Under the pieces are notes generated by a model that saw only the letters and a list, made by a program, of their open reading frames with translations, ran no database searches and was not told where the DNA came from. Both the position numbers and the translations under genes were made by a program. A stretch of 33,458 bases of DNA, taken from contig NZ_JAANNB010000017.1 in NCBI RefSeq assembly GCF_011603975.1, positions 1 to 33,458 on the forward strand, read 5' to 3'. Positions 4,876 through 25,638 of the stretch are shown here, piece by piece (within the stretch, counting starts at the first letter, position 1; each line of letters opens with the position of its first letter). The DNA is from Cellulomonas sp. IC4_254. GTDB taxonomy: Bacteria > Actinomycetota > Actinomycetes > Actinomycetales > Cellulomonadaceae.

Positions 4876-4925
4876 GTGGAGCGTTCTGCCCGACACGCCC
4901 CGGCGTGTTCGGCAGAACGCTCCAC
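4876..4925. terminator. Long 22-bp-arm hairpin at a convergent gene end
   Basis: Arms 4876-4897 and 4904-4925 pair over 22 positions with two adjacent mismatches around a 6-base loop. It lies between the stops of the converging F420-reductase-like and glycosyltransferase genes, so it can act as a bidirectional terminator. Neither side has a T-run, and the arm length is unusual for a simple terminator. Confidence 0.75.
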
Positions 4926-4949: not shown

Positions 4950-6251
4950 TCACCAGCCGCCGAGGTAGGCCTCCAGGTCCGGCTCCTCGGTAAGCGGGTC
5001 GAGGCCGTCGGCCGGGGTCGTCGCGCGCGGGAACAGGTCGTCGCGGCCCCACCGGCGCTCGCGGGCCCGGGCCCGGCGGGACACCACCCGGAGCAGCGGC
5101 GCGCCGTCCGGCCCGAGCAGGGCGAGCTCGCCCAGCCCGTCCGCGGCGACCCGCTCGACGGCGGCGGTGAGGGCGTCCGGCGTGGTCGCGCGCAGTGGGC
5201 GGTCCAGGACGACGTCCAGGCGGACGCGGTCGTACCGGTCGCCGCCGCCCGGGCCCGCGGGCTCGCCCGGCGCCGGCTCGGCGCCCGGCAGCGCCGCCAG
5301 CACCGAGTCGACGGACACGAACCGCTGCGCCGCCGACACCTCGTCCGGCGGGTGCACCAGCACGTCGACCCGGCCGGACGGCAGCCCGCGCGGCCGGGAC
5401 CCGGGCACGGGCACCAGGTCCGCGAGCCGCAGCGCCTCGGCGTTCTTCGCCGCCCGGGACGCCTCGTCGCGGCCGGACCAGTCCGGCCCGTCGTGCCAGG
5501 CGACCGCGTCCGGGACGTGCGCGAGCACCGCACCGGCCAGCCAGGCGCGGTAGGCCCACTCCCAGTCCTCGCCGCCGTAGGCCGAGAACCCCTCGTCGAA
5601 CCCGCCGACGGCGGCGAACAGCGTCCGGCTGCACGCCGCGACGGCGCCGATCACGTACCGGTACGACCGGTCGTCGGCGTCCAGCAGGTCCCGGCTGCGC
5701 CGGTAGGCGTCGGCGAGCCAGGCGGGCTCCGGCAGCTCCCGCTCCGGGCCGAGCCGCTCGACCGGCGCGTCCGCGGGCGCCCCGGCGAGGTCGGCGTGCC
5801 GCCGACGGCCGACGGCGACGCAGTCCGGCGCCAGCGCGGGCAGCCGCGCGATCGCCCGCAGGTACCCGGGCTCCGGAGCGGTGTCCGCGTCGAGGAACAC
5901 GAGCACGTCCCCGGTCGCGGCGGCGGCCCCGGCGTTGCGCGCGGCGGCGACCCGGAAGCCCCGGTCCTCCTGCCGCAGCAGCCGGACGCCGCAGGGCACC
6001 CGCGGCGGCACGGGCGAGCCGTCGTCCACCACGACGACCTCGGTCCGGTCGGCCGGGTGGTCCTGCCGGGCGAGGGCCGCCAGCGTCCGGTCGAGCTCGG
6101 CCTGCTGGTCGTAGTGCACGACGACGACCGAGACCACCGGCGGCACCTCGGGGACCACGCCGTCGAGCAGGTCCCACCGGTTGCCGGGCAGCGGCCGCCC
6201 CGCCGGGTGCGGCGCGCCGGGCGGGTGCGGGGCGTCGGGCGGCGGGGTCAC
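4950..6251 (-). CDS. Family 2 glycosyltransferase with galactosyltransferase-type C-terminal motif
   Basis: GT-A fold glycosyltransferase, 433 aa, no membrane segment. A Pro-rich N-terminus (1-40) leads into SVVVVHYDQQ, then DDGS at 76-79, the metal-binding DAD at 121-123 (VFLDADT) and the GGED motif at 226-229 (FDEGFSAYGGEDWEW), the signature of the Glyco_transf_7C domain. Residues after about 265 form an additional domain without recognised family. GTG at 6251 overlaps the stop of the preceding gene by four bases, so it is the second gene of a two-gene operon. Donor and acceptor unknown. It shares its core architecture with the gene at 10726 on the other arm of the cluster. Confidence 0.9.
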   Translation of the reverse strand: MTPPPDAPHPPGAPHPAGRPLPGNRWDLLDGVVPEVPPVVSVVVVHYDQQAELDRTLAALARQDHPADRTEVVVVDDGSPVPPRVPCGVRLLRQEDRGFRVAAARNAGAAAATGDVLVFLDADTAPEPGYLRAIARLPALAPDCVAVGRRRHADLAGAPADAPVERLGPERELPEPAWLADAYRRSRDLLDADDRSYRYVIGAVAACSRTLFAAVGGFDEGFSAYGGEDWEWAYRAWLAGAVLAHVPDAVAWHDGPDWSGRDEASRAAKNAEALRLADLVPVPGSRPRGLPSGRVDVLVHPPDEVSAAQRFVSVDSVLAALPGAEPAPGEPAGPGGGDRYDRVRLDVVLDRPLRATTPDALTAAVERVAADGLGELALLGPDGAPLLRVVSRRARARERRWGRDDLFPRATTPADGLDPLTEEPDLEAYLGGW

Positions 6252-7330
6252 GCGGCGGCCCCGTCGGTCGCGCCGGCGTCCTCGGCCCACCACGCGAGGT
6301 AGGCCGCGGCGGCGTCCGCCAGCGTCGGCGCGAGGGACGTCCCCGCAGGGAGCTGCGTCGCCCCGGGGTCGGCCCAGACCCGGGCGAGGTGCGCGGGCAG
6401 GTCCGCGGGCGGGTAGAGCGTCAGCGTGCCCGGGCGCAGCGCGGCCATCTCGCGGGCGTACCGGGAGTCGACGACCAGCGGCCGGCGACCCGCCTCGCCC
6501 CAGTCGAGCAGCGTGCGCGACGCCGACAGGTGCCGGTGCGCCGCGACCGGGACCCCGGGCCCGCGCAGCGCCGCGTGGAACGCGTCGTCGGCCAGGCCGC
6601 CCGTCACCCGCAGCGCCACGCCGCGGGACCCGGCCTCGGCGCGCAGCCGGTCGACCTCGTCCTCGTGACCGGGCGACGGCCCGCCGACCGCCACGACCGC
6701 GACCTCGCCGGGCGGGGTGCCGGCGGCGCGGAGCAGGTCGGCCGCGTCGGCGACAGCCCGGACGACGTCGTCGTGGCCCTTGCCGGGGTAGAGGAAGCCG
6801 GCGACGAGGGCGACCAGCGGCGCCCCGGCGGGGTCGGGGGCGGCCGCAGCGGCGGCCTCGGCGTCCGGGTCCGTGACGGCCGACCCCAGCGGCACCACCC
6901 GCGCGTGGCCGGCCGCCAGCACGCCGTGCTCCGCCAGCAGCAACGCCTCGTGCCGGCTGTTCACCGCGACCCCGGCCGCCGCCGCGGCGACCCGCGCGTA
7001 CGCGGCCGTGCGCCGGGGCAGGTTCCGCGGGCCGTCCGACTCCTGCGGGACGTCGTGCAGCGTGACCGTCAGGCGGCAGGCCGCCGCGAGCCGTTCCACC
7101 AGGTCGGCGGCGGCGTCGGGGGAGGACCCGAGCAGGCGGTCGGTGACGTGCAGGTGCGCGCGGTCCAGCCCCTCCGCCACGGCCGGCAGGTCGGCGGGGT
7201 CGTCGACGCGCAGCACCCGGGCGCCCGCGTCCAGGTCGCGGACGTGCGCCGCGAGGTCCCCGGCGTACCGGACGACCCCGTGCCGCGGCGGGCCGGTGAG
7301 GAGGAGCGCGGGGGTGTCGGACCTGGTCAT
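6248..7330 (-). CDS. GT-B fold glycosyltransferase (GT4-like, atypical catalytic motif)
   Basis: Predicted soluble glycosyltransferase of 360 aa. The N-terminal half contains TGPPRHGVVRYAGDLAAHV and VTLHDVPQE; the C-terminal half contains VNSRHEALLLAEHG and ALVAGFLYPGKGHDDVVRAV, as in group 1/GT4 enzymes. The canonical E-x7-E near the C-terminus is not evident: the region reads SASRTLLDWGEAGRRPLV, so the catalytic arrangement may differ or the protein may bind sugar without transferring it. Start ATG 7330 has no Shine-Dalgarno sequence but a good promoter ends 7 bases upstream (TTGCCG-17-CACGAT), indicating a leaderless mRNA. It diverges from the plus-strand glycosyltransferase operon across 116 bases. 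Confidence 0.83.
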   Translation of the reverse strand: MTRSDTPALLLTGPPRHGVVRYAGDLAAHVRDLDAGARVLRVDDPADLPAVAEGLDRAHLHVTDRLLGSSPDAAADLVERLAAACRLTVTLHDVPQESDGPRNLPRRTAAYARVAAAAAGVAVNSRHEALLLAEHGVLAAGHARVVPLGSAVTDPDAEAAAAAAPDPAGAPLVALVAGFLYPGKGHDDVVRAVADAADLLRAAGTPPGEVAVVAVGGPSPGHEDEVDRLRAEAGSRGVALRVTGGLADDAFHAALRGPGVPVAAHRHLSASRTLLDWGEAGRRPLVVDSRYAREMAALRPGTLTLYPPADLPAHLARVWADPGATQLPAGTSLAPTLADAAAAYLAWWAEDAGATDGAAA

Positions 7331-7337
7331 CGCGGCA

Positions 7338-7366
7338 ATCGTGGTCGAGTCGCGGGAAGGCGGCAA
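7338..7366 (-). promoter_or_regulatory. Leaderless promoter of the minus-strand glycosyltransferase operon
   Basis: Reading the minus strand: TTGCCG (7366-7361), a 17-base spacer, CACGAT (7343-7338), then 7 bases to ATG 7330. Spacing to the start leaves essentially no 5' leader. Confidence 0.6.
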
Positions 7367-7446
7367 CCGCGCGACACTCTGGGCACCACCGCGACGCAGC
7401 GCTGCTCGGGGACCGGGCGGCGCGCCCGTGACGACGAGAGGACCGC

Positions 7447-8595
7447 ATGTCGCAGCTCCTGGCACCGACCGCCGCCGCCGCGTCACGGTCCACGAGCCGC
7501 ACGGTCCGGGTCGCGGCCGTGCCCGCCGGCCACCCCTACGTCGCGCGCGTCACCGCGGCGGACGGGCTCCAGGTGCTGCCCGACCCGACCCCGCCGGGCG
7601 CGGAGCCGGGGCGGTGGTGGCCGCCCGTCGTGCTCGACCCCGCGTGGGTCCGCGCGCACGCCGCCGAGGCCGACCTGCTGCACGTGCATTTCGGCACCGA
7701 GTCGTTCGCCCCCGAGCACCTCGCCCGCACCCTGGCCGCGGCGCACGAGGCCGGCTGGCCGGTGGTCCTCACCGTGCACGACCTCGAGCACCCGCAGCTG
7801 ACCGACCAGGCGGGGTACCGCGCGCAGCTCGACGTCCTGGTGCCCGGTGCCGACGCCCTGGTCACGCTGACCCCCGGCGCGGCGGCGGAGATCCGGGCGC
7901 GCTGGAGCCGGGACGCCCTGGTGGTGCCGCACCCGCGGCTGCTCGGCGACCTGCCGCCCGCCGCCGACGCGGTGGCCCCCGCCCCCGGTGACGAGCGCGT
8001 CGTCGGCCTGCACCTCAAGGACCTCCGCCCGAACGTCGACGCCCCGTCCGCCGCCCGGGCCCTGCTCGCCGCCGTCGCGGACCTGCGTGCGTCCGGCCTG
8101 CCGGTCCGCGCGGAGGTGCGGCTGCACCGGCACGTCCGGGACGAGGCGGCGCGCGCCGAGGTCCGCGCCCTGTGCGCCGCGGCGGACCCGGCGGTGGTCC
8201 GGCTCGTCGAGCACGACCGGCTGGACGACGCCGCCCTCGCCGCCGCGCTCGCCGGGCTCGACGCGTGCGTGCTGCCCTACGCGCACGGCACGCACTCCGG
8301 CTGGCTCGAGCTGTGCTGGGACCTGGGCGTCCCCGTCGCCGCGCCGGCCGTGGGCTACTACGACCAGCAGCACCCCGACGGCTCGGTCGCGACGTCCGGG
8401 CCCGTCGGGGACGGCGCGGGCCTCGCGGGGGCGCTGCGCGACCTGCTGCGGTCGCCGGCGGCGACCCGCCCCGGGACCCCGGCGCGCGCGGCGCTGGTCC
8501 GCGACCGCCGCGACCGCCGGCTCGCCGAGGACCACGTCGCCGCCGAGCGGCACGCCGCGCTGTACCGCTCGCTGCTCGCCGGGGAGGCCCGGTGA
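7447..8595 (+). CDS. GT-B fold glycosyltransferase
   Basis: Predicted cytosolic glycosyltransferase, 382 aa, first gene of a four-gene plus-strand operon. Visible motifs are LLHVHFGTESF and VVLTVHDLEHP in the N-terminal Rossmann half and VGLHLKDLRPN, VVRLVEHDRLDD and HGTHSGWLELCWDLGVPV in the C-terminal half. The last segment aligns in position with the donor-sugar site of GT4 enzymes but the first glutamate of E-x7-E is replaced. ATG 7447 is supported by GAGAGG at 7436-7441. The stop overlaps the next start by four bases (GTGA). Similar in layout to the divergent gene at 7330. Donor and acceptor unknown. Confidence 0.85.
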   Translation: MSQLLAPTAAAASRSTSRTVRVAAVPAGHPYVARVTAADGLQVLPDPTPPGAEPGRWWPPVVLDPAWVRAHAAEADLLHVHFGTESFAPEHLARTLAAAHEAGWPVVLTVHDLEHPQLTDQAGYRAQLDVLVPGADALVTLTPGAAAEIRARWSRDALVVPHPRLLGDLPPAADAVAPAPGDERVVGLHLKDLRPNVDAPSAARALLAAVADLRASGLPVRAEVRLHRHVRDEAARAEVRALCAAADPAVVRLVEHDRLDDAALAAALAGLDACVLPYAHGTHSGWLELCWDLGVPVAAPAVGYYDQQHPDGSVATSGPVGDGAGLAGALRDLLRSPAATRPGTPARAALVRDRRDRRLAEDHVAAERHAALYRSLLAGEAR

Positions 8596-9710
8596 CCCGT
8601 CCGCCCCTGCGCGTGGTCGTCGTCGCGCCCCTCCGCTTCCCGATCCGGCAGCCGCACGCCGGCGGTCTGGAGTCGGCCGTCTGGAACGAGGTCCGCACGC
8701 TGCGCGCCCGCGGGCACGAGGTGTCGCTGATCGCGGTGCGCGGCTCCGACTTCCTGGACGGCGGCCCGGCCGAGTTCGCGCTGCCGACCCTCGACTGGCC
8801 CGAGGGCGCCCGCGCCACGGACTCGCACTACCCCGACGCCTACCTCGAGCGGTCCGTGCCGGCGCTCGACCGCGCGCTCGACGTGATCGCCCGCGACCCC
8901 GCGCGGTACGACGTCATCTCCAACCACTGCCTGCACGGTCTGCCGCTGCGGCGGGCCGCCGGCCTCGGCGTGCCGATGGTCTCGACCCTGCACACGCCGC
9001 TGGAGCCCGAGCTGGTCGACGCCGCCGCGCACGCCCGGGGCACCCGGTTCCTCGCGGTCAGCGCGCACACCCGGCGCGAGTGGGCCCCGGTCGTCGACGC
9101 GACCGTGCTGCCCAACGGGATCGACGCGGCGGACTGGCCGTTCGGGCCCGGCGGCGACGGCCTGGTCTGGTCCGGGCGGCTGGTCCCGGAGAAGGCGCCG
9201 CACCTGGCGATCGAGGCGGCCCGGATGCTGGGGCGCGAGCTGACGATCGCGGGCCGCGTCGGCGACCGGGAGTACGCCGAGCAGCACGTGCTGCCGCACG
9301 TCGGGGACGGCGTCCGGTACGTCGGCCTGCTCGACCAGCCGGCCCTCGCGCGCCTCATCGGCCGCAGCGCGTGCGCCCTGGGGACGCCCGCCTGGGAGGA
9401 GCCGTTCGGCCTCGTCGGCCCGGAGGCGCTGATGTGCGGCACCCCCGTCGCGGCGTTCGGCGCCGGCGGCATCCGGGAGATCGCGCGCACGGCGACCGGC
9501 ATGTCGGCCGTGCCGCGCGGGGACGTGGCGGCGCTCGCGGAGGCCGCGGAGCGGCTGGCCACCCGCGGGGCGGCGGAGCCGGGCTTCCGGGTCCGGGTGC
9601 GCGCGTCGGCGCGCCGGCACTACGGCCTGGACACCCGGGTCGACGCCCTCGAGCGGGTGTTCCGCTCGCTGGTCGCCCAGCGCGACGCCGGCGCGGAGCT
9701 GATCGCGTGA
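8592..9710 (+). CDS. Family 4 glycosyltransferase
   Basis: Retaining GT-B glycosyltransferase of 372 aa. It opens with VVVVAPLRFPIRQPHAGGLE, the acceptor-side glycine loop of GT4 enzymes, has LPNGID in the linker, and carries a complete E-x7-E donor motif, E270 to E278 (EPFGLVGPE), followed by GTPVAAFGAGGIREI. No membrane segment, although such enzymes often sit on the inner membrane surface. GTG 8592 overlaps the previous gene by four bases; the stop overlaps the next start likewise. This is the most conventional enzyme of the cluster and likely uses a nucleotide hexose. Confidence 0.93.
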   Translation: MTRPPLRVVVVAPLRFPIRQPHAGGLESAVWNEVRTLRARGHEVSLIAVRGSDFLDGGPAEFALPTLDWPEGARATDSHYPDAYLERSVPALDRALDVIARDPARYDVISNHCLHGLPLRRAAGLGVPMVSTLHTPLEPELVDAAAHARGTRFLAVSAHTRREWAPVVDATVLPNGIDAADWPFGPGGDGLVWSGRLVPEKAPHLAIEAARMLGRELTIAGRVGDREYAEQHVLPHVGDGVRYVGLLDQPALARLIGRSACALGTPAWEEPFGLVGPEALMCGTPVAAFGAGGIREIARTATGMSAVPRGDVAALAEAAERLATRGAAEPGFRVRVRASARRHYGLDTRVDALERVFRSLVAQRDAGAELIA

Positions 9711-10729
9711 GCCGCCCGACCGTGGCCTGGTACGTGCACCACCACGGGTCGGGGCACCTCGGCCGGCTGCGCGCCGTCGCCCCGCACCTGGACGCGGACG
9801 TCGTCGCGCTGAGCTCGCTGCCCGCGCCGCCGGACCTGCCCCCGCACGTCGACTGGGTGCGGCTCGACCGCGACGACGAGCCCGACCCCCGCACCGGGCG
9901 GCGCCCCGCCGAGGCCGACCCCGCCGCCGGCGGCCTGCTGCACTGGGCGCCGCTGCTGCACCCCGGCCACCGCGGCCGGTTCACGCGGATCGCCCGGGAG
10001 CTCGACGCGCGCGGCGCGGCGGCCGTCGTGGTGGACGTGTCCGTCGAGGTCACCGTCCTCGCGCGGCTGCTCGGCGTCCCGCCGGTGCTGGTCGCCCAGC
10101 CCGGGGTGCGGGACGACGAGCCGCACGCCCTCGGCCTGCGCGCCGCCGCCCGGGTGCTGGCGCCGTGGCCCGCCGACGTCGTGCCCGCCCCGCACCTGGA
10201 GCCGGTCCGGGACCGCGTCGTGTTCACCGGCGGGATCAGCCGGTTCGACGGGCGCGAGGTCGCCGACGGGGACCGCGAGGGCGTGCTCGTGCTCGGCGGC
10301 CGGGGCGGCTCGGGCGTGACCGCCGAGCACGTCGACGCCGCCGCGCGCGCCACGCCCGGGCACCGGTGGACGTCCCTCGGCGCCGGCGGGACCTGGTCGG
10401 ACGACCCGTGGCGCGAGCTCGCCGCCGCGGGCACCGTCGTGTCGTTCGCCGGCCAGAACTCCGTGGCGGACCTCGCGGTCGCCGGCGCGCGGGCCGTGGT
10501 CGTCCCGCAGGACCGGCCGTTCGACGAGCAGGCCGTCACCGCCCGCGCCCTCGGCCGGGCCGGGCTCGCGGTCGTCGAGCCCGCGTGGCCGGAGCCCGGG
10601 CGCTGGCCCGAGGTGCTGGCCCGCGCCGAGGCGCTCGACCCGGACTGGTCGGTGTGGGAGACGGCGGGCGCCGCCGCGCGCGCCGCCGAGGCGATCGCCG
10701 ACGTGGCCCGGGGCCGGGGTGCGTGGTGA
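9707..10729 (+). CDS. MurG-like (GT28/GT1) glycosyltransferase
   Basis: A 340-aa GT-B protein. The N-terminus YVHHHGSGHLGRLRAV resembles the acceptor-binding glycine loop of MurG/MGDG synthase-type enzymes, and the C-terminal VVSFAGQNSVADLAVAGARAVVVPQ with DEQAVTARAL matches the UDP-sugar-binding half of family 28, with Asp in place of the usual Glu after the GQxSV motif. Proteins of this class transfer GlcNAc, galactose or glucose to lipid acceptors, so it hints that the cluster's product is lipid-linked. Coupled by GTGA overlaps at both ends. Confidence 0.85.
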   Translation: MSRPTVAWYVHHHGSGHLGRLRAVAPHLDADVVALSSLPAPPDLPPHVDWVRLDRDDEPDPRTGRRPAEADPAAGGLLHWAPLLHPGHRGRFTRIARELDARGAAAVVVDVSVEVTVLARLLGVPPVLVAQPGVRDDEPHALGLRAAARVLAPWPADVVPAPHLEPVRDRVVFTGGISRFDGREVADGDREGVLVLGGRGGSGVTAEHVDAAARATPGHRWTSLGAGGTWSDDPWRELAAAGTVVSFAGQNSVADLAVAGARAVVVPQDRPFDEQAVTARALGRAGLAVVEPAWPEPGRWPEVLARAEALDPDWSVWETAGAAARAAEAIADVARGRGAW

Positions 10730-11532
10730 CCGGCCGCCCGGCGGTCGTGACGCTGTGCTCGGCGCCGCGGGTCGACCACCTGCGCCGCCAGCTCGCCGCG
10801 GTCCGCCGCCACCCCGGGGTGCTCGTCGTCGTGGTGTGGGTCGGCGACGACGAGCCGCCGGCCCTCGACGCCGACGCGGTGCTCCGGGTGCCGCCCGGGC
10901 CGGACGGCCTGCGGCTGGCCGCGGCGCGGAACGCGGGCGCGGATCGCGCCGTCGCCCTCGGGGCCGACCTGCTGGTGCTGCTCGACGCCGACTGCGTGCC
11001 CGGGGCCGACCTGCTCGACCGGTACGCCGCCGCGGCCGCCGCGCACCCCGACGCCGTGCTCTGCGGGCCGGTCACCTACCTGCCGCCCGGCGCGGTCGTC
11101 GACGACCCCGCGGCGCTCGCGGCCGCCACCGACCCGCACCCGGCACGGCCGGCACCGGCCTCGGGCGAGGTGCTGGTCGCCGCCGACGACGAGTACGACC
11201 TGTTCTGGTCGCTGTCGTTCGCGCTCACCGCGGCGCGCTGGGCCGACGGACCCCGGTTCGACGAGGGCTACCAGGGCTACGGCGGCGAGGACACCGACTT
11301 CGGCTACGCCCTGCGCGCGGCCGGGGTGCCGCTGGCCTGGGTCGGCGGGGCGCACGCGTACCACCAGCACCACCCCACGAGCAGCCCCCCGTGGCAGCAC
11401 CTCGACGACGTGCTGCGCAACGGCGCCCGGTTCGCGCGCCGGTGGGGACGGTGGCCGATGGAGGGCTGGCTGCGGGCGTTCGCCGAGGCGGGCGCGGTCC
11501 GCTGGGACGGCACCACCTGGCACCGCGCCTGA
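10726..11532 (+). CDS. Family 2 glycosyltransferase, compact, with GGED motif
   Basis: GT-A glycosyltransferase of 268 aa and last gene of the four-gene operon. It lacks the usual N-terminal DDGS but has RLAAARNAGADRA, the metal-binding DAD at 87-89 (VLLDADC) and GGED at 186-189 (FDEGYQGYGGEDTDF), the Glyco_transf_7C signature. The core parallels the 433-aa enzyme at 4950-6251, suggesting related reactions on both arms of the cluster. Start GTG 10726 overlaps the previous stop by four bases. A His-rich stretch (AYHQHHPTSS) follows the catalytic block. Confidence 0.9.
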   Translation: MTGRPAVVTLCSAPRVDHLRRQLAAVRRHPGVLVVVVWVGDDEPPALDADAVLRVPPGPDGLRLAAARNAGADRAVALGADLLVLLDADCVPGADLLDRYAAAAAAHPDAVLCGPVTYLPPGAVVDDPAALAAATDPHPARPAPASGEVLVAADDEYDLFWSLSFALTAARWADGPRFDEGYQGYGGEDTDFGYALRAAGVPLAWVGGAHAYHQHHPTSSPPWQHLDDVLRNGARFARRWGRWPMEGWLRAFAEAGAVRWDGTTWHRA

Positions 11533-11557
11533 CCCGCGCCTCTACCCGCCCGCCCGT

Positions 11558-11611
11558 CGGCTCGCGCCCGGCCGCCGGCTCGCGACCGCCCTCCGGCTCA
11601 CGAGTGCCCAT
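11558..11611. repeat. Three imperfect 18-bp tandem units
   Basis: Units begin with CGGCTC at 11558, 11576 and 11594. The first two differ at about 3 of 18 positions and the third has diverged further. They lie directly before the 11610-11660 hairpin in the noncoding gap between converging glycosyltransferase genes. Confidence 0.5.
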
Positions 11612-11660
11612 GAGACACGTCGAGTGCCTATCCCGCGGATAGGCACTCGACGTGTCTCGT
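11610..11660. terminator. Perfect 22-bp-arm hairpin at a convergent gene end
   Basis: Arms 11612-11633 and 11637-11658 are perfectly complementary around a 3-base loop, extended outward by one U-G and one A-T pair. It separates the converging genes ending at 11532 and 11680. No T-run. A ten-base block GAGTGCC-Y-AT recurs just outside and inside the left arm (11602 and 11622). Confidence 0.8.
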
Positions 11661-11679
11661 CGACCCTCGCCAGGCGGCG

Positions 11680-12933
11680 TCAGCCGCGCGGGGGGCCGAG
11701 GAGGGCGTCCGCGGCGTCGAGCAGGTCGGCGGCGACGGGGTCGGCCGTCCACCGGTCGGCGCCCGCCGCGGCGCGCGCCCCGAGCGTGGCCGCCAGCACC
11801 GGGTCGGTGAGCAGGCGCAGCACCGCCTCCGCCAGCGCGGGCGGGTCGGCCGGCGGCACCATGAGGCTGTCCTCGCCGTCGGTGCAGAAGTCGTCGTAGC
11901 CGCTGCCGGTCGTGACCACGACGGCGCCGCCGACCGCCTTGGCCTCCAGCGCGGCGTTGCCGAACCCCTCCCACCGGGACGGGCAGGTGGTGACCGCGGC
12001 CTCGCGGATCGCCCGGTACAGGGTGTCGTCGTCCACGTGCCCGAGCCAGGTGACCCGGTCCCGGGCCTCCGGGGGCAGCGCGGCGAGCAGCGCCGGCCGG
12101 TCGGGCTCGAACCGCCGGTCCCCGCTCGCCCCGGCGAGCACCAGGCGCGCCGTCGGGTGCCGGCGGGCGACCTCGGCGAACGCCGCGAACGCGTCGGTGA
12201 CGCCCTTGCGCCGCTCCAGCCGGCCGAGGAACAGCACCACCGGCGCCCCGTCGTCAGGCCAGCCGGCCGGCAGCCCCGCCGACCCGGCCGCGTGCCGCAC
12301 GTGCGCGACGTCGATGCAGTTGCGGACCACCCGCGCGGGCGGCAGGCCCCGGAACGCCGCCTCGGTCCAGCGCTGCATGGCCCGGGAGATCGGCACCAGC
12401 CCGGCCGAGCGCCGCACCTGCCGGTCCTCGAGCCGGCTCTGCGCCGCGACCACCGCGCCGCCGCGCAGCCCGAACGACCGGGGCGTGAAGCCGGCGACCT
12501 CGTTGGCCAGGCGGGTGCTGGTCGCCAGGTTGGTCAGCAGCGGCGCGCCGGCCGGCAGCCCGACCCCGAGCGCGGCCCACTCCGGCAGGAACACCCGGTC
12601 GTAGGCACCCTCGCGGTACGCCCGGCGCACGGCGGCGGCGCGGGCGAGCAGGGCGGGCACCCGCGGGCGCGGCGGGCGGACGTGCCCGACGAGCCGGACC
12701 CCGCCCAGGTCGGCGTCGGGCAGCAGGGGGCCGTCGGCGAGCACCAGCAGGTCGACCGCCGCACCCCGGCGCACGAGCGCGGGCAGCAGCGAGGCGTAGT
12801 GCCGGCCGATGCCGCCGGTGTACGGGGTGAGCCCGGCGTACTCGGTGGTGGCCACCAGCCACCGCCCGCGGGTCGGGCGCGCGCCGGGCGCGGCGGGGCT
12901 CGCGGGGGTGCTGGCGTGCAGGTCGGAGGCCAC
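11680..12933 (-). CDS. Family 4 glycosyltransferase
   Basis: Retaining GT-B glycosyltransferase, 417 aa. After about 24 low-complexity residues come WLVATTEYAGLTPYTGGIG (acceptor glycine loop), LVPISRAMQRW, VLFLGRLERRKG in the linker, and a complete E-x7-E from E322 to E330 (EGFGNAALE). No membrane segment. GTG 12933 is the first in-frame start with no in-frame ATG nearby; an internal GTG at the LVATT segment is an alternative that would drop the low-complexity lead. It is transcribed toward the four-gene glycosyltransferase operon and may act in the same pathway. Confidence 0.9.
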   Translation of the reverse strand: MASDLHASTPASPAAPGARPTRGRWLVATTEYAGLTPYTGGIGRHYASLLPALVRRGAAVDLLVLADGPLLPDADLGGVRLVGHVRPPRPRVPALLARAAAVRRAYREGAYDRVFLPEWAALGVGLPAGAPLLTNLATSTRLANEVAGFTPRSFGLRGGAVVAAQSRLEDRQVRRSAGLVPISRAMQRWTEAAFRGLPPARVVRNCIDVAHVRHAAGSAGLPAGWPDDGAPVVLFLGRLERRKGVTDAFAAFAEVARRHPTARLVLAGASGDRRFEPDRPALLAALPPEARDRVTWLGHVDDDTLYRAIREAAVTTCPSRWEGFGNAALEAKAVGGAVVVTTGSGYDDFCTDGEDSLMVPPADPPALAEAVLRLLTDPVLAATLGARAAAGADRWTADPVAADLLDAADALLGPPRG

Positions 12934-13084: not shown

Positions 13085-14593
13085 ATGACCACGGTCACCC
13101 TCACCCTCGACCCGGCGTTCCGCGTCGGGCCGGTCCGCCGCCGCACGTTCGGTGCCTTCGTGGAGCACCTCGGCCGCTGCGTCTACAGCGGCATCCACGA
13201 CCCGGAGCACCCGAGCGCCGACGCCGACGGGTTCCGCGGCGACGTCATCGACCTGACCCGGGAGCTCGGCGTCTCGACCGTCCGCTACCCGGGCGGCAAC
13301 TTCGTGTCCGGCTACCGGTGGGAGGACGGCGTCGGCCCGCGCGACCAGCGGCCCCGCCGGCTCGACCTGGCCTGGCACTCCACCGAGCCGAACCTCGTCG
13401 GCGTCGACGAGTTCATGCGCTGGACCCAGGCGTCCGGCACCGAGGCGATGATGGCCGTCAACCTCGGCACCCGCGGGGTCCAGGAGGCCCTGGACCTGCT
13501 GGAGTACTGCAACGTCAAGGGCGGCACCGCGCTGTCCGACCAGCGGCGCGCCAACGGCGCCGCCGAGCCGTACGACATCAGGCTCTGGTGCCTCGGCAAC
13601 GAGATGGACGGCCCCTGGCAGATCGGGCACAAGACCGCGCACGAGTACGGCCGGCTCGCCGCCGAGACCGCCCGCGCCATGCGGATGATCCAGCCCGACC
13701 TGGAGCTCGTCGCCTGCGGCTCCTCCGGCGTGCCGATGCCGACGTTCGGGCAGTGGGAGCAGACCGTGCTCTCCGAGACCTACGAGCACGTCGACATGAT
13801 CTCGGCGCACGCGTACTACGCCGAGGAGGACGGCGACCTCGGGTCGTTCCTGGCGTCGGCCGTCGACATGGACCACTTCATCGACTCGGTCACTGCGATC
13901 GCCGACGGCGTGCGGGCGCACAAGAAGGTCGCCAAGCGGATCCACATCTCGTTCGACGAGTGGAACGTCTGGTACCAGCAGCGCGCCGAGTCGGTGCCGC
14001 CGTCGGGCGACGACTGGCCGGTCGCACCCGTGCTGCTGGAGGACAAGTACAACGTCGCCGACGCCGTCGTGGTGGGCAACCTGCTCATCTCGCTGCTCCG
14101 GCACACCGACCGCGTGCACTCGGCGTCGCTCGCCCAGCTGGTCAACGTGATCGCGCCGATCATGACCGAGCCCGGCGGCCGCATCTGGCGGCAGACGACG
14201 TTCCACCCGTTCGCGCAGGCGTCGCGGTACGCCGTCGGCGAGGTCCTCCAGGTCGCGATCGACGCGCCGACCTACGAGACCGCCAAGTTCGGCGACGCCC
14301 CGCTGGTCGACGCCGTGGCGACCCGCGACCCCGAGTCCGGTGCCGTCGCGCTGTTCGCGGTCAACCGCTCGACCACGGAGACGGTGACGCTCGAGGTCGA
14401 CACCCGCTCGATCCCCGGGCTCCGGGTGCTCGGCGCCACCAGCCTGTCGAACCCGGACCACACCTGGGTCGCCACCGCCGACGACGACACCGCGGTGCTG
14501 CCGCGGGACAACGACACCGCGACCGTCGACGGCGGTCGGCTCACCGTCCAGGTGCCGCCGGTGTCGTGGAACGTGGTCCGGCTCGGCGCCTGA
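13085..14593 (+). CDS. Intracellular alpha-L-arabinofuranosidase, GH51
   Basis: Hydrolyses terminal alpha-L-arabinofuranosyl residues from arabino-oligosaccharides in the cytosol. 502 aa, the usual GH51 length, with no signal peptide. The N-terminal FGAFVEHLGRCVYSGI, the general acid/base E173 in WCLGNEMDGPWQ and the nucleophile E292 in SFDEWNVWY are all present, within a TIM barrel followed by a beta-sandwich C-terminal domain (ending VPPVSWNVVRLG). ATG 13085 is preceded by GAAGGAG at 13067-13073 with an 11-base spacer. It is a single-gene unit; together with the sugar ABC genes at the left it fits a plant-biomass degrader. Retaining mechanism is known for the family. Confidence 0.97.
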   Translation: MTTVTLTLDPAFRVGPVRRRTFGAFVEHLGRCVYSGIHDPEHPSADADGFRGDVIDLTRELGVSTVRYPGGNFVSGYRWEDGVGPRDQRPRRLDLAWHSTEPNLVGVDEFMRWTQASGTEAMMAVNLGTRGVQEALDLLEYCNVKGGTALSDQRRANGAAEPYDIRLWCLGNEMDGPWQIGHKTAHEYGRLAAETARAMRMIQPDLELVACGSSGVPMPTFGQWEQTVLSETYEHVDMISAHAYYAEEDGDLGSFLASAVDMDHFIDSVTAIADGVRAHKKVAKRIHISFDEWNVWYQQRAESVPPSGDDWPVAPVLLEDKYNVADAVVVGNLLISLLRHTDRVHSASLAQLVNVIAPIMTEPGGRIWRQTTFHPFAQASRYAVGEVLQVAIDAPTYETAKFGDAPLVDAVATRDPESGAVALFAVNRSTTETVTLEVDTRSIPGLRVLGATSLSNPDHTWVATADDDTAVLPRDNDTATVDGGRLTVQVPPVSWNVVRLGA

Positions 14594-16087: not shown

Positions 16088-16378
16088 GTGCCGACCCCGC
16101 CAGCCGAGACCCCGCCCCGCGTCGTCCTCTACTCCCGCGCGGGCTGCCACCTGTGCGACGCCGCGCGCGACCTGGTCGCGTCCGTCGCCGCCGAGCACGG
16201 CGAGCGCTGGGTCGAGGTGGACGTCGACGCCGACGGCACGGCGCGCGACGGGCGGTCGCTCGCGGCGGCGTACGGCGAGCTGCTCCCCGTCGTGGAGGTG
16301 GACGGCGTGCGCGTCGGCTACTGGCAGATCGACCCCTACCGGCTCGTCGACGCCCTGAGGGGGGCCCCGCAGGCCTAG
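16088..16378 (+). CDS. Glutaredoxin-like thiol-disulfide protein
   Basis: Small thioredoxin-fold protein of 96 aa with the active-site C20-H-L-C23 after the first beta strand (VVLYSRAGCHLC), and ELLPVVEVDG providing the cis-proline loop. This is the DUF836/glutaredoxin-like type often encoded beside rex in actinobacteria. Likely reduces disulfides in the cytosol. GTG 16088 is preceded six bases upstream by TACGCT, so the message is probably leaderless. The stop codon TAG forms the first three bases of the predicted -10 of rex. Confidence 0.9.
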   Translation: MPTPPAETPPRVVLYSRAGCHLCDAARDLVASVAAEHGERWVEVDVDADGTARDGRSLAAAYGELLPVVEVDGVRVGYWQIDPYRLVDALRGAPQA

Positions 16379-16381
16379 GCT
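16376..16381 (+). promoter_or_regulatory. -10 hexamer of rex (leaderless), overlapping the upstream stop codon
   Basis: TAGGCT ends six bases before GTG 16388. Its TAG is also the stop codon of the glutaredoxin-like gene. Confidence 0.55.
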
Positions 16382-16387
16382 GTCGCC

Positions 16388-17086
16388 GTGCGAGCCCTGC
16401 CGCCGACCACCGTCGCCCGCCTGCCGGGATACCTGCGCTCCCTCGGCGGTCTCGCCTCGGAGGGCGTGACCACCACGTCGTCCGACCAGCTCGCCGAGCT
16501 CGTCGGCGCGTCCCCCGCGCAGCTGCGCAAGGACCTGTCGTACCTGGGCGCGGGCGGCCGGCGCGGCGTCGGGTACGAGGTGGACCACCTGCGGCGGCAG
16601 ATCGCCCAGGCCCTCGGCATGACCGAGGAGCGCCGGGTCGTCATCGTCGGCATCGGCAACCTCGGGCACGCCCTCGCCACCTACTCGGGGTTCGCGGACC
16701 GCGGGTTCGTGCTCGTGGGCCTGTTCGACACCGACCCCGCCCTGGTCGGCACCGAGGTCGGCGGGCACGTCGTGCAGCACGTCGACGGCCTCGAGCGCGT
16801 GGTCGAGCAGCAGGAGGCCAGCGTGGCGATCGTCGCGACGCCGGCGTCCGCCGCGCAGCCCACCACCGACCGGCTCGTCGCGGCGGGCGTGACCGGGGTG
16901 CTGAACTTCGCGCCCCGCACGGTCCGGGTGCCCGACGGTGTGGACGTCCGCGAGGTCGACCTCGGGTCCGAGCTGCAGATCCTGGGCTTCCACGCGCGCC
17001 AGCGCTCGGGGGCGGCGGCCGAGCCGACCCCGGCGCGGACCCCGGAGCCCGAGCCGCAGCCCGAGCCGGTCCCCGCCGCCGACTGA
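16388..17086 (+). CDS. rex: Redox-sensing transcriptional repressor Rex
   Basis: NADH/NAD+-sensing repressor of respiratory genes, 232 aa. Residues 8-60 form the winged helix (LPGYLRSLGG; LVGASPAQLRKDLSYLG), then the Rossmann domain with VGIGNLGHAL at 87-96 and FDTDP at 113-117, and the C-terminal swapped helix. The last 30 or so residues are an extra Glu-Pro-rich tail not needed for the fold. GTG 16388 follows a TAGGCT hexamer by six bases. In many actinobacteria rex is followed by hemA and other heme genes; here it is followed by a terminator and a converging yceI, while the cytochrome c maturation operon lies about 1.5 kb on. No TTGTG-N8-CACAA Rex site was seen in the intergenic regions. 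Confidence 0.95.
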   Translation: MRALPPTTVARLPGYLRSLGGLASEGVTTTSSDQLAELVGASPAQLRKDLSYLGAGGRRGVGYEVDHLRRQIAQALGMTEERRVVIVGIGNLGHALATYSGFADRGFVLVGLFDTDPALVGTEVGGHVVQHVDGLERVVEQQEASVAIVATPASAAQPTTDRLVAAGVTGVLNFAPRTVRVPDGVDVREVDLGSELQILGFHARQRSGAAAEPTPARTPEPEPQPEPVPAAD

Positions 17087-17112
17087 CCCGCCCCGCGGCG
17101 GCTGGCCCCGGA

Positions 17113-17174
17113 CGCACGAGAGGGCCCGGTCGACCGCGGCAGGGGGTGCGCGGTCGACCGGGCCCTCACGTGCG
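17113..17174. terminator. Long bidirectional terminator between rex and yceI
   Basis: A perfect 19-bp stem (17120-17138 with 17149-17167) is extended outward, past one A-A mismatch, by six more pairs (17113-17118 with 17169-17174). The loop has 10 bases. It lies between converging stops. Confidence 0.8.
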
Positions 17175-17230
17175 CCGCCCCCGGCGTGCGCGGCAGGCGC
17201 GCGCCGGGGGCGGCGGGGTCGTGCGGAGGC

Positions 17231-17788
17231 TCAGGCCTGCTTGATGGCCGAGACCTCGAGGTTGATGACGACCTTGTCGGACACCAGGACGCCGCCGGCC
17301 TCGAGGGCCGCGTTCCAGGTGATGCCGAACTCCTTGCGGGAGATGGTCACCGAGGCGGAGAAGCCCGCGCGCTGGTTGCCGAACGGGTCGGTGGCCGCGC
17401 CGCCGAACTCGGTGGCGAGCTCGACCGTCTTGGTCACGCCGTTGATGGTGAGCTCGCCGGTCACGACGTAGTCCTCGCCGTCCGCGGCGACCGAGGTCGA
17501 GGCGAAGGTCCACTCGCCGAACTTCTCCAGGTCGAAGAAGTCGGTCGAGCCCTTGAGGTGGCCGTCGCGGTTCGCGTCGCCGGTGGCGATGGTCGACGGG
17601 TCGAGCGAGGCGGTCACGCCGGAGAGCGTGAGGTCCTCGGCGACGGTGATGGTGCCGGAGGTCACCGCGACGGTGCCGCGGACCTTGGAGATGCCCGCGT
17701 GGCGGACGGTGAAGGACGCCTCGGTGTGCGAGGGGTCGATCGCCCAGGTGCCGGCGGTGAGGGCGGTGGGGAGCGTCGTGGTCGACAT
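17231..17788 (-). CDS. YceI family protein
   Basis: Lipocalin-like beta-barrel of 185 aa that in this family binds a polyisoprenoid or similar amphipathic ligand. Visible motifs include GTWAIDPSHTEASFTVRHAG at 13-32, FFDLEKFGEWTF in the middle and ELTINGVTKTVEL before the last strands. There is no signal peptide, so it is probably cytosolic, unlike the periplasmic E. coli YceI. ATG 17788 has GGAGG six bases upstream. It diverges from a marR-type gene, with two overlapping GTTGA/TCAAC operators between them, so it is likely repressed by that regulator. Confidence 0.95.
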   Translation of the reverse strand: MSTTTLPTALTAGTWAIDPSHTEASFTVRHAGISKVRGTVAVTSGTITVAEDLTLSGVTASLDPSTIATGDANRDGHLKGSTDFFDLEKFGEWTFASTSVAADGEDYVVTGELTINGVTKTVELATEFGGAATDPFGNQRAGFSASVTISRKEFGITWNAALEAGGVLVSDKVVINLEVSAIKQA

Positions 17789-17810
17789 GGGTGCCTCCTG
17801 CGAAGTATTG

Positions 17811-17837
17811 GTTGAAGCATCAACTGCGGTTAGTTGA
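17811..17837. promoter_or_regulatory. Double MarR-type operator between yceI and marR
   Basis: Three alternating half-sites: GTTGA (17811-17815), TCAAC (17820-17824) and GTTGA (17833-17837). The first pair has a 4-base spacer as at 3047-3060; the second pair forms TCAACT-N6-AGTTGA (17820-17837). The array sits upstream of both divergent starts in an unusually AT-rich patch. Confidence 0.75.
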
Positions 17838-17846
17838 GATTTCTAC

Positions 17847-17852
17847 TACAGT
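17847..17852 (+). promoter_or_regulatory. -10 hexamer of the marR-type gene
   Basis: TACAGT lies 10 bases right of the operator array, so the array would cover the -35 region. The leader would be about 66 bases with GGAGGAGG before ATG 17925. The -35 itself is weak. Confidence 0.5.
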
Positions 17853-17924
17853 GGGGCTCGCTGCGCAAGGGCTGTGGGACGATCGGGCGGCGACGTCACG
17901 CAGGGGCGCGGGAGGAGGACGGCG

Positions 17925-18470
17925 ATGAGCACCACGACCACCGGCACGACCAGGGCGGATGCACCGCGGTCGCACGACGACGTCCGCTGGCTCACGGCGG
18001 ACGAGCAGCGCGCCTGGCGCGCCTACCGCGACGGCACGGCCCGGCTGCTCGACGTGCTCGCCCACGAGCTCGAGCAGGACTCCGGGCTGTCCCTCGGCGA
18101 GTACGAGGTGCTGGTCCGGCTGTCCGAGGCCCCGCAGCGCACGCTCCGGATGTCGGAGCTCGCCGGGGAGCTCGCGCACTCCCGCAGCCGCCTCACGCAC
18201 ACCGTCCGCCGCATGGAGGCCGCCGGCCTGGTCGAGCGCGCGCCCTGCCTCGAGGACGCCCGCGGTGTGAACTGCACCATGACGGAGACCGGCTGGCGTC
18301 GCCTGGTCGACGCCGCGCCCGCGCACGTCGAGTCCGTGCGCGCGCACCTCGTCGACGTGCTCTCGCCGGTCCAGATGCAGGCCCTGGGCGACGCTATGGC
18401 CGCCGTCGGCGCCGCGCTGCAGGCCGGCTGCGCCCAGGTCGAGGCCGACGCGGCGGCCGCCGGGGGCTGA
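17925..18470 (+). CDS. MarR-family transcriptional regulator
   Basis: Winged-helix repressor of 181 aa. The DNA-binding domain covers about residues 55-120: LSLGEYEVLVRL, RMSELAGELAHSRSRLTHTV (recognition helix) and a wing containing EDARG. Flanking helices dimerise. Two cysteines, C108 and C117, flank the wing, and a third lies near the C-terminus, so redox sensing is possible but unproven. ATG 17925 is chosen for GGAGGAGG at 17911-17918; an in-frame ATG at 17874 lacks such a site. It probably represses itself, yceI and, from the matching box, the LLM operon at 3109. Confidence 0.93.
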   Translation: MSTTTTGTTRADAPRSHDDVRWLTADEQRAWRAYRDGTARLLDVLAHELEQDSGLSLGEYEVLVRLSEAPQRTLRMSELAGELAHSRSRLTHTVRRMEAAGLVERAPCLEDARGVNCTMTETGWRRLVDAAPAHVESVRAHLVDVLSPVQMQALGDAMAAVGAALQAGCAQVEADAAAAGG

Positions 18471-18472
18471 TC

Positions 18473-18502
18473 CGGACCCGCCCCGCGCCCCCGCGCGGTC
18501 CG
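18473..18502 (+). terminator. Possible terminator after marR
   Basis: CGGACC (18473-18478) pairs with GGTCCG (18497-18502) around a GC-rich 18-base loop that can itself pair partly. Weak; no U-run. Confidence 0.3.
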
Positions 18503-18533
18503 ACCACCCAGCCGGGTTTGCGAGACTGACCCC

Positions 18534-19190
18534 ATGGTCGCCACCACCATCCACCTCATGCGGCACGGCGAGGTGCACAACCCCGAGGGCGTGCTCTACG
18601 GACGGCTCGACGGGTACCACCTGTCCGAGCGGGGCCGGGAGATGGCCGAACGCGTCGCCGCGCACCTCGCCGGACGCCTCGACGGGCCGCGCCGCGACGT
18701 CACCGCGCTGTTCGCGTCGCCGCTGACGCGCGCGCAGGAGACCGTCGCCCCGATCGCCGCGGCACTGGACCTGCCCGTCACCACCGACGAGCGGCTGCTC
18801 GAGGCCGAGAACCGGTTCCAGGGCCTGACGTTCGGCGTCGGCGACGGCTCGCTGCGGCACCCGCGGCACTGGCCGCTGCTGGTGAACCCGTTCCGGCCGT
18901 CCTGGGGCGAGCCGTACCGGCAGCAGGCCGGGCGGATGCTCGCGGTCGTCGACGCCGCGCGCGAGGCCGCCCGCGGGCACGAGGCCGTGCTGGTCAGCCA
19001 CCAGCTGCCCATCTGGGTCACCCGGCTCGCGCTGGAGGACCGCCGGCTGTGGCACGACCCGCGCCGCCGGCAGTGCTCGCTCGCGTCGCTGACCTCCCTG
19101 ACCTACGAGGACGACCGCCTGGTGCGCATCGGCTACACCGAGCCCGCGGCCGACCTGCTGCCCGGCGCCTCGGCCGTGGCGGGCGCGTGA
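18534..19190 (+). CDS. Histidine phosphatase (phosphoglycerate mutase-like)
   Basis: Phosphohistidine-forming phosphatase or mutase of 218 aa. The catalytic motif is LMRHGE with R10 and H11; R66 (SPLTRAQET), the acidic E90/E92 region and the second histidine H156 (VLVSHQLPIW) complete the active site. It is the first gene of the cytochrome c maturation operon, a placement seen in other actinobacteria, but a direct role there is not known. ATG 18534 has no Shine-Dalgarno sequence; GAGACT ends six bases upstream, a weaker leaderless candidate. Its stop overlaps the next start by four bases. Confidence 0.92.
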   Translation: MVATTIHLMRHGEVHNPEGVLYGRLDGYHLSERGREMAERVAAHLAGRLDGPRRDVTALFASPLTRAQETVAPIAAALDLPVTTDERLLEAENRFQGLTFGVGDGSLRHPRHWPLLVNPFRPSWGEPYRQQAGRMLAVVDAAREAARGHEAVLVSHQLPIWVTRLALEDRRLWHDPRRRQCSLASLTSLTYEDDRLVRIGYTEPAADLLPGASAVAGA

Positions 19191-19813
19191 CCACCCGGGG
19201 CGGCGCCCGGTCGCGGGCCCGGCGCGCCGCGGCGGCCGCCGTCGCGCTCGGCGCCGCGCTCGCGCTCGCCGCGTGCTCCTCCGGCGGCGGCTCCGGCTCG
19301 GACACCGACGTCGCCGACCAGGGCTACGTGTCCGGTGACGGCTCGTTCACGCAGTGGGCGGTCGCGGACCGGCAGGGCCCGGTCGAGGTGGCCGGCTCCG
19401 ACTACGCCGGGGACGCCGTCGACATCGCCGACTGGCGCGGCGACGTCGTCGTGCTGAACACCTGGTACGCGGCGTGCCCGCCGTGCCGGGAGGAGGCGCC
19501 GGACCTCGTCGACATCGCGAACGAGTACGCGGACGCCGGCGTGCACCTGCTCGGCATCAACGGCGTCGACGACGCCGGGGCGGCCGAGCCGTTCCAGACG
19601 ACCTTCGACGTGCCGTACCCGAGCATCGACGACCGCGACAAGCAGGCCATCGCCGCGCTGCAGGGCATCGTGCCGATCCAGGCGACCCCGACGACGGTCG
19701 TGCTCGACCGGGACGGCAAGGTCGCCGCGCGGATCGTCGGGCTCGCCGAGGGCTCCACGCTGCGCGCGCTGATCGACGAGGTGCTCGCCGAGGACGGCGG
19801 GGGCTCCGCGTGA
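19187..19813 (+). CDS. resA: TlpA/ResA-type thiol-disulfide lipoprotein
   Basis: Membrane-anchored extracytoplasmic thioredoxin of 208 aa that reduces the haem-binding CxxCH cysteines of apocytochrome c. Arg-rich N-terminus, hydrophobic segment and lipobox L-A-A-C30 followed by a Ser/Gly linker mark a lipoprotein. The AhpC/TSA-like domain carries C97-P-P-C100 in TWYAACPPCREEAP and the cis-proline region IQATPTTVVLDRDG. GTG 19187 overlaps the preceding stop. It receives electrons from CcdA, the next gene, whose ATG overlaps this stop by one base. Confidence 0.94.
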   Translation: MTTRGGARSRARRAAAAAVALGAALALAACSSGGGSGSDTDVADQGYVSGDGSFTQWAVADRQGPVEVAGSDYAGDAVDIADWRGDVVVLNTWYAACPPCREEAPDLVDIANEYADAGVHLLGINGVDDAGAAEPFQTTFDVPYPSIDDRDKQAIAALQGIVPIQATPTTVVLDRDGKVAARIVGLAEGSTLRALIDEVLAEDGGGSA

Positions 19814-20718: not shown

Positions 20719-20719
20719 G

Positions 20720-22435: not shown

Positions 22436-22440
22436 ACGAC

Positions 22441-23550: not shown

Positions 23551-23572
23551 CCCCGCCGGCGCCGCTGCGAGG

Positions 23573-23620
23573 CGCGCGGCCGGTGTCGCCACGAGTCGCG
23601 CGGCCGGTGTCGCCACGAGT
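23573..23620. repeat. Perfect 24-bp tandem duplication
   Basis: Positions 23573-23596 and 23597-23620 are identical, directly after the ccsB stop in noncoding DNA. Each unit starts CGCGCGGCC and ends GCCACGAGT. Confidence 0.85.
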
Positions 23621-23686
23621 GGCCCGTCCCGCGTGCCCGGTGTGAGGCCTGCCCTGATCCCCACCCGGAAGTCGCGCGCCCACCCG

Positions 23687-23716
23687 GACGATCGGTGCGC
23701 GGCGCGACGATCGGTG
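23687..23716. repeat. 11-bp direct repeat
   Basis: GACGATCGGTG occurs at 23687-23697 and again at 23706-23716, a 19-base period, in the same noncoding gap. Confidence 0.6.
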
Positions 23717-23752
23717 GGGGACGAGCGGGCGCGTCAGACGTGACGGTTCCGC

Positions 23753-23784
23753 GTCGGCCGGTCGGCCGGTCGGCCGGTCGGCCG
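23753..23784. repeat. Four tandem copies of GTCGGCCG
   Basis: An 8-bp unit is repeated exactly four times (23753-23784). The unit contains the palindrome CGGCCG, so single strands can fold. The whole gap 23551-23824 otherwise shows no gene or clear terminator. Confidence 0.85.
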
Positions 23785-23824
23785 GCGTGGCGGCCTGGCG
23801 GTCGGGCGGGCCGACCCGAGGCCG

Positions 23825-24211: not shown

Positions 24212-24216
24212 GCTCC

Positions 24217-24222
24217 ACCCTA
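24217..24222 (-). promoter_or_regulatory. -10 hexamer of the PLDc_N gene
   Basis: TAGGGT on the minus strand, five bases before ATG 24211. Confidence 0.5.
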
Positions 24223-24338
24223 ACCAGCGCGCGCACACCGACCCCGCCCCGGGCCGGGTGATCGCGGGAACCCCCACGAGGTCGTCACATCCGGCCGCGC
24301 TCCGCCGGGCCCGGGTCGGACCGTCCCCGGGATCGGCC

Positions 24339-24344
24339 TACCCT
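24339..24344 (+). promoter_or_regulatory. -10 hexamer of the DUF4229 gene (leaderless)
   Basis: TACCCT, six bases before GTG 24351; the intervening bases cannot hold a ribosome site. Confidence 0.55.
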
Positions 24345-24350
24345 GGACCC

Positions 24351-24659: not shown

Positions 24660-24671
24660 CGCCCCCGCGCG

Positions 24672-25541: not shown

Positions 25542-25559
25542 GGTGCTCCTGTCGTGGGG

Positions 25560-25577: not shown

Positions 25578-25598
25578 CGGGTGGTTCGGCGTGCAGCG

Positions 25599-25619: not shown

Positions 25620-25638
25620 CGCGCACGCACGACGCGGG

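Follow-up and report, generated by a model that had tools for sequence, protein, structure and literature searches.

A conserved glycosyltransferase gene set in Cellulomonas sp. IC4_254 and its relatives: a possible pathway to a decorated cytosolic oligosaccharide

The methylglucose lipopolysaccharides (MGLP) and methylmannose polysaccharides (MMP) of mycobacteria are intracellular actinobacterial glycans, built by soluble glycosyltransferases (GTs) and decorated with methyl and acyl groups. HepE (Alr3699) is a GT of the heterocyst glycan. TeGSS (tll1591) is the glucosylsucrose synthase of Thermosynechococcus; the gene lies near the sucrose-phosphate synthase (SPS) gene tll1590, and glucosylsucroses are reported to increase under salt and heat stress (PMC9909042). 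WcbI (PF18588) has been described in capsule synthesis (PMC4104973). The present study deals with a cluster of seven genes, named A to G, at positions 4950-12933 of a 33,458-nucleotide stretch of Cellulomonas sp. IC4_254 DNA (contig NZ_JAANNB010000017.1); this whole stretch is called the window. Gene calling by codon usage gave exactly seven genes in the interval, all GT-like, which are laid out as two divergent operons (A-B and C-D-E-F) and one convergent gene (G). D is homologous to TeGSS over its full length, but in the window other GTs stand with D, and the genomes of the order contain no convincing SPS. Structure matches of B and C include the MMP mannosyltransferase (7qsg), but the set of GTs differs from that of MGLP and MMP, and no GpgS, or ManT with O-methyltransferases, the marks of those pathways, was found among the seven genes. 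HepE is the closest solved relative of B by both profile and fold, but B shares 16% identity with it in the structural alignment and the window has no hep-like locus. The usual form of the locus includes a WcbI-family gene, whereas no WcbI match was found in the window's genome at E 1e-8. A literature search among open-licence PubMed Central papers gave no description of the gene set, though strict term combinations may have limited the matches. An initial annotation of the window had known of no pathway with this set, and what is found here is indeed a conserved system without a match to a described locus.

It was found that A to F, with G as an accessory, are one conserved system, in which D-E-F is the core and A-B-C is a second module able to lie apart. 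Among 149 genomes of the same order, 34 (belonging to 20 of 64 genera) have E, 36 have F, 26 have B and 24 have a WcbI-like gene; one F match, in G104 (E 1.4e-11, 35% identity), is probably a paralog. F is present in all 34 genomes with E, and E was found in 25 of the 26 genomes with B. The remaining genome (G029) has F and WcbI, and A, C, E and D are labelled at the same locus (L091); its E fell under the search threshold. All 24 genomes with WcbI have B, and the two that have B but lack WcbI are G000 and G121. In five genomes (G065, G066, G107, G121 and G135; L086-L090) A-B-C is present far from D-E-F. WcbI is unlinked in seven genomes, at a third site in G065, G066, G107 and G135 and apart in G006, G034 and G136. 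Because the modules co-occur even when they are unlinked, linkage alone does not explain their genome-wide retention.

In 31 neighbourhoods and the window (n = 32) D and F were each counted 32 times, E 31, C 24, A 19 and B 17 times. Apart from the window's genome, 33 genomes have E; the neighbourhoods come from 31 of them (all but G040 and G051) and were picked for their E match, so their D, E and F counts are not independent. Separate searches of the genomes were also made for B, F and WcbI. Adjacent genes overlap in 234 of 269 same-strand pairs among C, D, E and F in our own gene calls, in which the choice of starts may inflate overlaps. It should be noted here that the genes of fetched loci are simple codon-usage calls, some of them fused or truncated, and that the Fisher p values of this study overstate independence, the loci being related to each other. 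At the phylum level the E profile matched 19 of 396 genomes at E 1e-30. Chance grouping of the seven genes is ruled out by co-occurrence and synteny. The annotation had considered that the genes might prove to have scattered orthologs; they co-occur and are syntenic. Its seven-gene set is retained as one conserved system, of which the seven are only one variant: the core is D-E-F, the A-B-C part may be found elsewhere in the genome, and G stands in for WcbI.

When named genomes were scanned with the F alignment, at least 565 relatives came up. The best 80 of these, a sample biased to close relatives, are the named loci of this study and include Microbacterium, Frigoribacterium, Cellulomonas, Actinoplanes, Corynebacterium, Rhodococcus, Gordonia, Nocardioides and Solirubrobacter. 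The most frequent layout is -A -B -WcbI +C +D +E +F. The window holds members of all six families A to F together, and its arrangement of seven genes, G included, recurs in Cellulomonas rhizosphaerae (L099). The locus is also held by Microbacterium testaceum. In 117 loci, A and B occur with WcbI in 62, with G in seven and alone in nine; A is alone in seven, WcbI alone in one, and 31 have none of these. A WcbI-family gene (assigned by Pfam, PF18588, for one member) is thus present in 62 of the 78 loci having A and B. G and WcbI were found together in none of the 117 loci. With the window, G is known in eight loci, six of them Microbacteriaceae, and WcbI is missing from every one (p = 9e-7 among A-B loci, uncorrected for relatedness). 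This exclusion holds within a locus, and among the G-type cases the whole-genome WcbI search covers the window's genome only; in three of the nine loci with A and B alone (L041, L044, L061) WcbI is elsewhere in the genome. G takes the place of WcbI and marks a subtype without it.

Other decorating genes differ from lineage to lineage. Eight of 32 loci carry a gene for an FkbM-type methyltransferase. Genes for an acyl-CoA-dehydrogenase-like protein, a PIG-L deacetylase and a NodS-like methyltransferase, separate or fused, lie near the cluster in several loci, replacing or accompanying the SPS-like gene of plasmids (see below), namely L071 and L072 (Sphingomonadaceae plasmids), L074 (a Jiella plasmid), L150, L178 and seven loci of the order. 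PIG-L-NodS is present in 35 of the 149 genomes and is associated with E (18 of 34 genomes with E against 17 of 115 without it); with a threshold of E 1e-30 the same query matched nothing in the genome of the window. The annotations also show sulfotransferase genes near L199, L202 and L206, and L200 has a pyruvyltransferase gene. The search for a co-occurring modifying gene, which had been suggested by the annotation, was thus fruitful, as WcbI-like, FkbM-like and PIG-L/NodS genes came to light. A module of acyl-CoA-dehydrogenase-like, PIG-L-NodS and GT2 genes is seen in genomes of the order and in L150, L178 and L061; in several loci it adjoins genes for catalase, zinc alcohol dehydrogenase and short-chain dehydrogenase/reductase.

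Table 1. Genes and sequence features of the glycosyltransferase cluster in the window
Feature	Positions	Strand	Description	Basis
A	4950-6251	-	GT2 glycosyltransferase with conserved C-terminal extension	PF00535 4.6e-19; 17-row alignment
B	6248-7330	-	GT4-type glycosyltransferase	4-base overlap with A
C	7447-8595	+	GT4-type glycosyltransferase	PF13439 27.3 bits, below cut-off 28.5
D	8613-9710	+	GT4 glycosyltransferase, core gene	PF00534, PF13439
E	9707-10729	+	MurG/GT28-like glycosyltransferase, core gene	PF04101 22.3 bits, barely above cut-off 22
F	10723-11532	+	GT2 "galactosyltransferase-related", core gene	PF00535 21.2 bits, below cut-off 23.3
G	11680-12933	-	GT4 glycosyltransferase, convergent	PF13692 4.1e-31
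Divergent intergenic region	7331-7446	.	Separates the A-B operon from the C-D-E-F operon	Gene calls
Long inverted repeat	4878-4925	.	Between the F420-reductase-like gene and A	Read from sequence
Long inverted repeat	11609-11659	.	Between convergent genes F and G	Read from sequence

Family scans (Pfam and NCBIfam for six genes, Pfam only for F) placed A, D, G and barely E above their own Pfam cut-offs; C and F stay below theirs and B has zero Pfam matches. Among solved structures A is closest to the chondroitin synthase K4CP (profile E 4e-42). The profile of F matches chondroitin synthase (1.7e-15) and beta-1,4-galactosyltransferases, and that of E matches EspG2, YjiC, MurG and CalG2 with E about 1e-9 to 1e-8; the alignments of F and E have 34 and 33 rows. 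The profile of B matches Alr3699/HepE at 1.6e-5. AlphaFold models of B and C (mean pLDDT, the predicted confidence, 91.5 and 92.2) resemble GT4 enzymes of GT-B fold in the PDB; the best Foldseek match of the B model is HepE (5e-10), and the C model matches MshA and BshA (about 5e-11). Some alignment rows were omitted (E: L064, L066, L069; F: L064; D: L049, L064; A: L042, L069; B: L046; C: L042, L061, L064). G was tried as an SPS and rejected, as its best solved match, Tll1590 (1.1e-21), covers the C-terminal half only and TIGR02472 gave just 18.6 bits. No clear membrane helix was seen in the seven proteins, whose top 19-residue hydropathy means are 1.18 to 1.85, and no initiating transferase, flippase, polymerase, ligase, carrier or sugar-nucleotide gene is among the seven genes. 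The picture drawn by the annotation was confirmed in these points: seven soluble-looking GTs in two diverging operons plus a convergent gene, two of them GT2 proteins with GGED motifs (YGGEDW in A, YGGEDT in F), and no carrier, flippase, polymerase or sugar-nucleotide gene in the cluster. The two inverted repeats are nearly perfect and are possibly terminators or repeat elements.

It could be possible that A to F, with G as an alternative accessory, form one pathway making a decorated cytosolic oligosaccharide on a small soluble acceptor, a reading to which we give slightly less than an even chance. Soluble enzymes would add sugars one by one to the acceptor inside the cell. D, E and F, as GT4, MurG-like and galactosyltransferase-like enzymes, would build the core, and C, A and B would extend or branch it. 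Decoration would vary by lineage, being carried out by the WcbI-like protein, G, the FkbM-like methyltransferase, the PIG-L/NodS/acyl-CoA-dehydrogenase-like set, a sulfotransferase or a pyruvyltransferase. Nucleotide sugars would be drawn from general metabolism and the product would remain in the cytosol, and because of this no carrier, flippase, polymerase or sugar-nucleotide genes would be needed in the cluster. The conservation, co-occurrence, variants and neighbours of the genes and the predicted folds of B and C are observed; the soluble acceptor, the sugars, the order of steps and the stress connection are what we infer. The profile of D matches, among solved structures, glucosylsucrose synthase (7fg9, 6.4e-66) and tetrahydrobiopterin (BH4) glucosyltransferase (5zer, 4.1e-57); with D as a single sequence TeGSS gave E about 1e-25, equal to the BH4 glucosyltransferase. 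These closest solved relatives glycosylate small soluble molecules, and together with the SPS-linked operons of plasmids they suggest a small soluble acceptor in the cytosol. Of the annotation's idea that an oligosaccharide is assembled on a lipid or protein made elsewhere, we keep the oligosaccharide; the plasmid neighbours and the solved relatives of D point to a soluble acceptor and make a lipid or protein carrier, though possible, less likely.

Plasmid records were searched by tblastn, and E was found in 17 and F in 39 of them, mostly from alphaproteobacteria and Rhodococcus. From these, 15 records were hand-picked and examined. An SPS-like gene lies near E and F in ten of the 15 (L073, L074, L075, L198-L203, L206); D is also near in nine of the ten (the exception is L202) and a sucrose-phosphatase (SPP) domain is present in eight. 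Proteobacterial plasmid D thus lies near an SPS-like gene, as tll1591 does near tll1590. Actinobacterial hidden Markov models, which include Rhodococcus plasmid rows, separate plasmid D, E and F from the SPS-like genes. Orthology in these records is clear, as in L198, with 348 bits for D, 192 for E and 264 for F, and 49 bits for its SPS-like gene with the D profile. The Jiella pelagia plasmid (L074, 3637-13589) carries both proteobacterial variants together, with SPS-like, PIG-L deacetylase, methyltransferase and acyl-CoA-dehydrogenase-like genes beside homologs of D, E and F. The nucleotide-side residues Arg179 and Lys184 of TeGSS are kept as R189 and K194 of D in 100 of 100 non-plasmid and 14 of 14 plasmid rows, the residue positions being mapped by eye from the pairwise alignment.

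D-E-F might even be the core of an undescribed and widespread family of cytosolic stress oligosaccharides, common to actinobacteria and proteobacteria. The starter would be sucrose or another small molecule, the exchangeable modules would bring acyl, sulfate or pyruvate groups or a deacetylated N-methylated amino sugar, and the window would be the subtype with G replacing WcbI. This wider proposal is put forward tentatively and is rather doubtful. The product may be stress-related, on evidence that is suggestive only. A large catalase gene is present in 11 of 126 cluster neighbourhoods (L042, L048, L053, L057, L061, L071, L072, L104, L150, L177, L178) and in none of the comparison loci, which are a small control. 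Genes for SigB/F/G-type sigma factors are present in 5 of 92 loci (L144, L155, L157, L166 and L169), those of L144 and L157 having also been checked by NCBIfam. L144 further has a CsbD-like gene, and L170 an Hsp20 gene. A GGTTT-N-GGGTA pattern, which we take to resemble the SigF promoter consensus, lies 95-110 bases before the operon in Mycolicibacterium L144 (about 7798-7823) and in Gordonia L157 and L166 (upstream of C), and SigF-type genes are present in the same three loci.

Several observations weigh against a cytosolic, sucrose-related or stress-related product. The sucrose contacts Trp10 and Tyr18 of TeGSS are absent from D: position 8 is R in 85 and W in 1 of 100 rows, position 16 is A in 79 and Y in 1, and the 14 plasmid rows have no W and no Y there. 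D as a plain sucrose glucosyltransferase was rejected on this ground, and even in the plasmid operons an enzyme other than D may act on sucrose. The plasmid SPS-like genes score 241-436 bits, under the TIGR02472 cut-off of 576, and they may possibly use another sugar phosphate or donor. SPS (TIGR02472) was above its cut-off in none of the 149 genomes of the order, the best being 121 bits (in G000 the best match has E 1.6e-30, 106 bits); with this model 1 of 14 controls is over the cut-off. The SPP-domain query, run without a positive control, likewise found none in the 149 genomes. SPS and SPP as the source of the starter in the window's order were rejected for lack of a convincing match there, and these searches give no support to a sucrose link in the window's lineage. 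As to stress, catalase neighbours are a minority of neighbourhoods, and the SigF-like pattern is not enriched (8 of 188 core operons against 38 of 891 other genes, p = 1.0), so that a SigF-type promoter was discarded as a general feature of the cluster. Of the 35 gene calls scanned in the window (all but the incomplete last), not one showed a catalase, SigF-type, CsbD or Hsp20 domain. Finally, the relatives of E include MurG, which acts on a lipid-linked acceptor.

The kinship of E with MurG is also where another explanation starts, that the cluster builds the saccharide portion of a glycolipid or surface glycan on a lipid carrier, with the carrier, flipping and precursor genes elsewhere in the genome. 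Surface glycans often bear pyruvate and sulfate, and the pyruvyl- and sulfotransferase genes fit such a product. Polysaccharide synthases such as K4CP are relatives of A and F, B resembles HepE, and the capsule role of WcbI points the same way. However, judged by eye, the 14 most widespread neighbour families in 92 loci include no flippase, polymerase or initiating transferase. Groupings of ATP-binding cassette (ABC) ATPases (17 loci) and of major facilitator superfamily (MFS) and amino acid-polyamine-organocation (APC) permeases (six loci each) are at scattered gene distances, and the ABC ATPase, used as a query under strict settings, matched its own locus only. With the SPS-like neighbours in proteobacteria and the closeness of D to small-molecule enzymes also on that side, we consider a glycolipid or surface glycan unlikely.

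The matches of E to the natural-product GTs CalG2 and oleandomycin GT could instead mean that an exported specialised glycoside is made, like an aminoglycoside or orthosomycin. The PIG-L/NodS/acyl-CoA-dehydrogenase-like set of one variant would suit amino-sugar tailoring, and decorations that differ by lineage agree with this. A metabolite of this kind is distinctly unlikely, as the same 14 families hold no dedicated transporter, resistance or regulator gene at a fixed place, the distribution is wide and includes SPS-linked forms, and the window's genome has no PIG-L-NodS match at the threshold used. Very unlikely in our estimate is a glycosylated cofactor or small redox molecule, comparable to mycofactocin, mycothiol or glycosylated pterins. 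For it speak the relation of D to the BH4 glucosyltransferase, the MshA/BshA-like fold of the C model, the catalase neighbours, which suggest oxidative stress, and a pterin-binding, dihydropteroate synthase (DHPS)-like gene five genes from F in L150. A matches MftF (TIGR03965) at 88.3 bits, but this is far under the cut-off of 280, and none of the 14 neighbour families could be recognised as one of pterin, mycofactocin or thiol synthesis, no dedicated search having been made. In L150 (12978-14815) a glucosyl-3-phosphoglycerate synthase gene (GpgS) followed by the DHPS-like gene lies close to the D-E-F variant. GpgS lies near D-E-F in at least two loci, L150 and L167.

The co-occurring set is found in more than 20 genera of two phyla; in some cases it is carried by plasmids and lies next to stress genes, and its product might represent a new class of bacterial glycans. 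The swap of WcbI for G and the other changes of tailoring genes provide a natural series for dissecting each step, and the SPS-linked plasmid operons, such as the Sulfitobacter-type one (SPS-like gene, E, F and D), are a simple four-gene version.

On one side of the cluster the window carries ABC permeases and a LacI regulator (55-2995) and on the other the arabinofuranosidase ArfA (13085-14593). In three relatives (L211, L212, L213) LacI, the permeases and ArfA share one locus, because of which the pair of luciferase-like monooxygenase (LLM) and F420-reductase genes, together with the GT cluster, may be an insertion in an arabinoside locus; among relatives, an empty insertion site in clean form was not obtained. 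Beyond the cluster (16088-32854) lie glutaredoxin, Rex, cytochrome c biogenesis and menaquinone-type genes, and the stretch Grx-Rex-YceI-MarR-PGM-AhpC-CcdA-ResB-CcsB is syntenic in G088 (L212).

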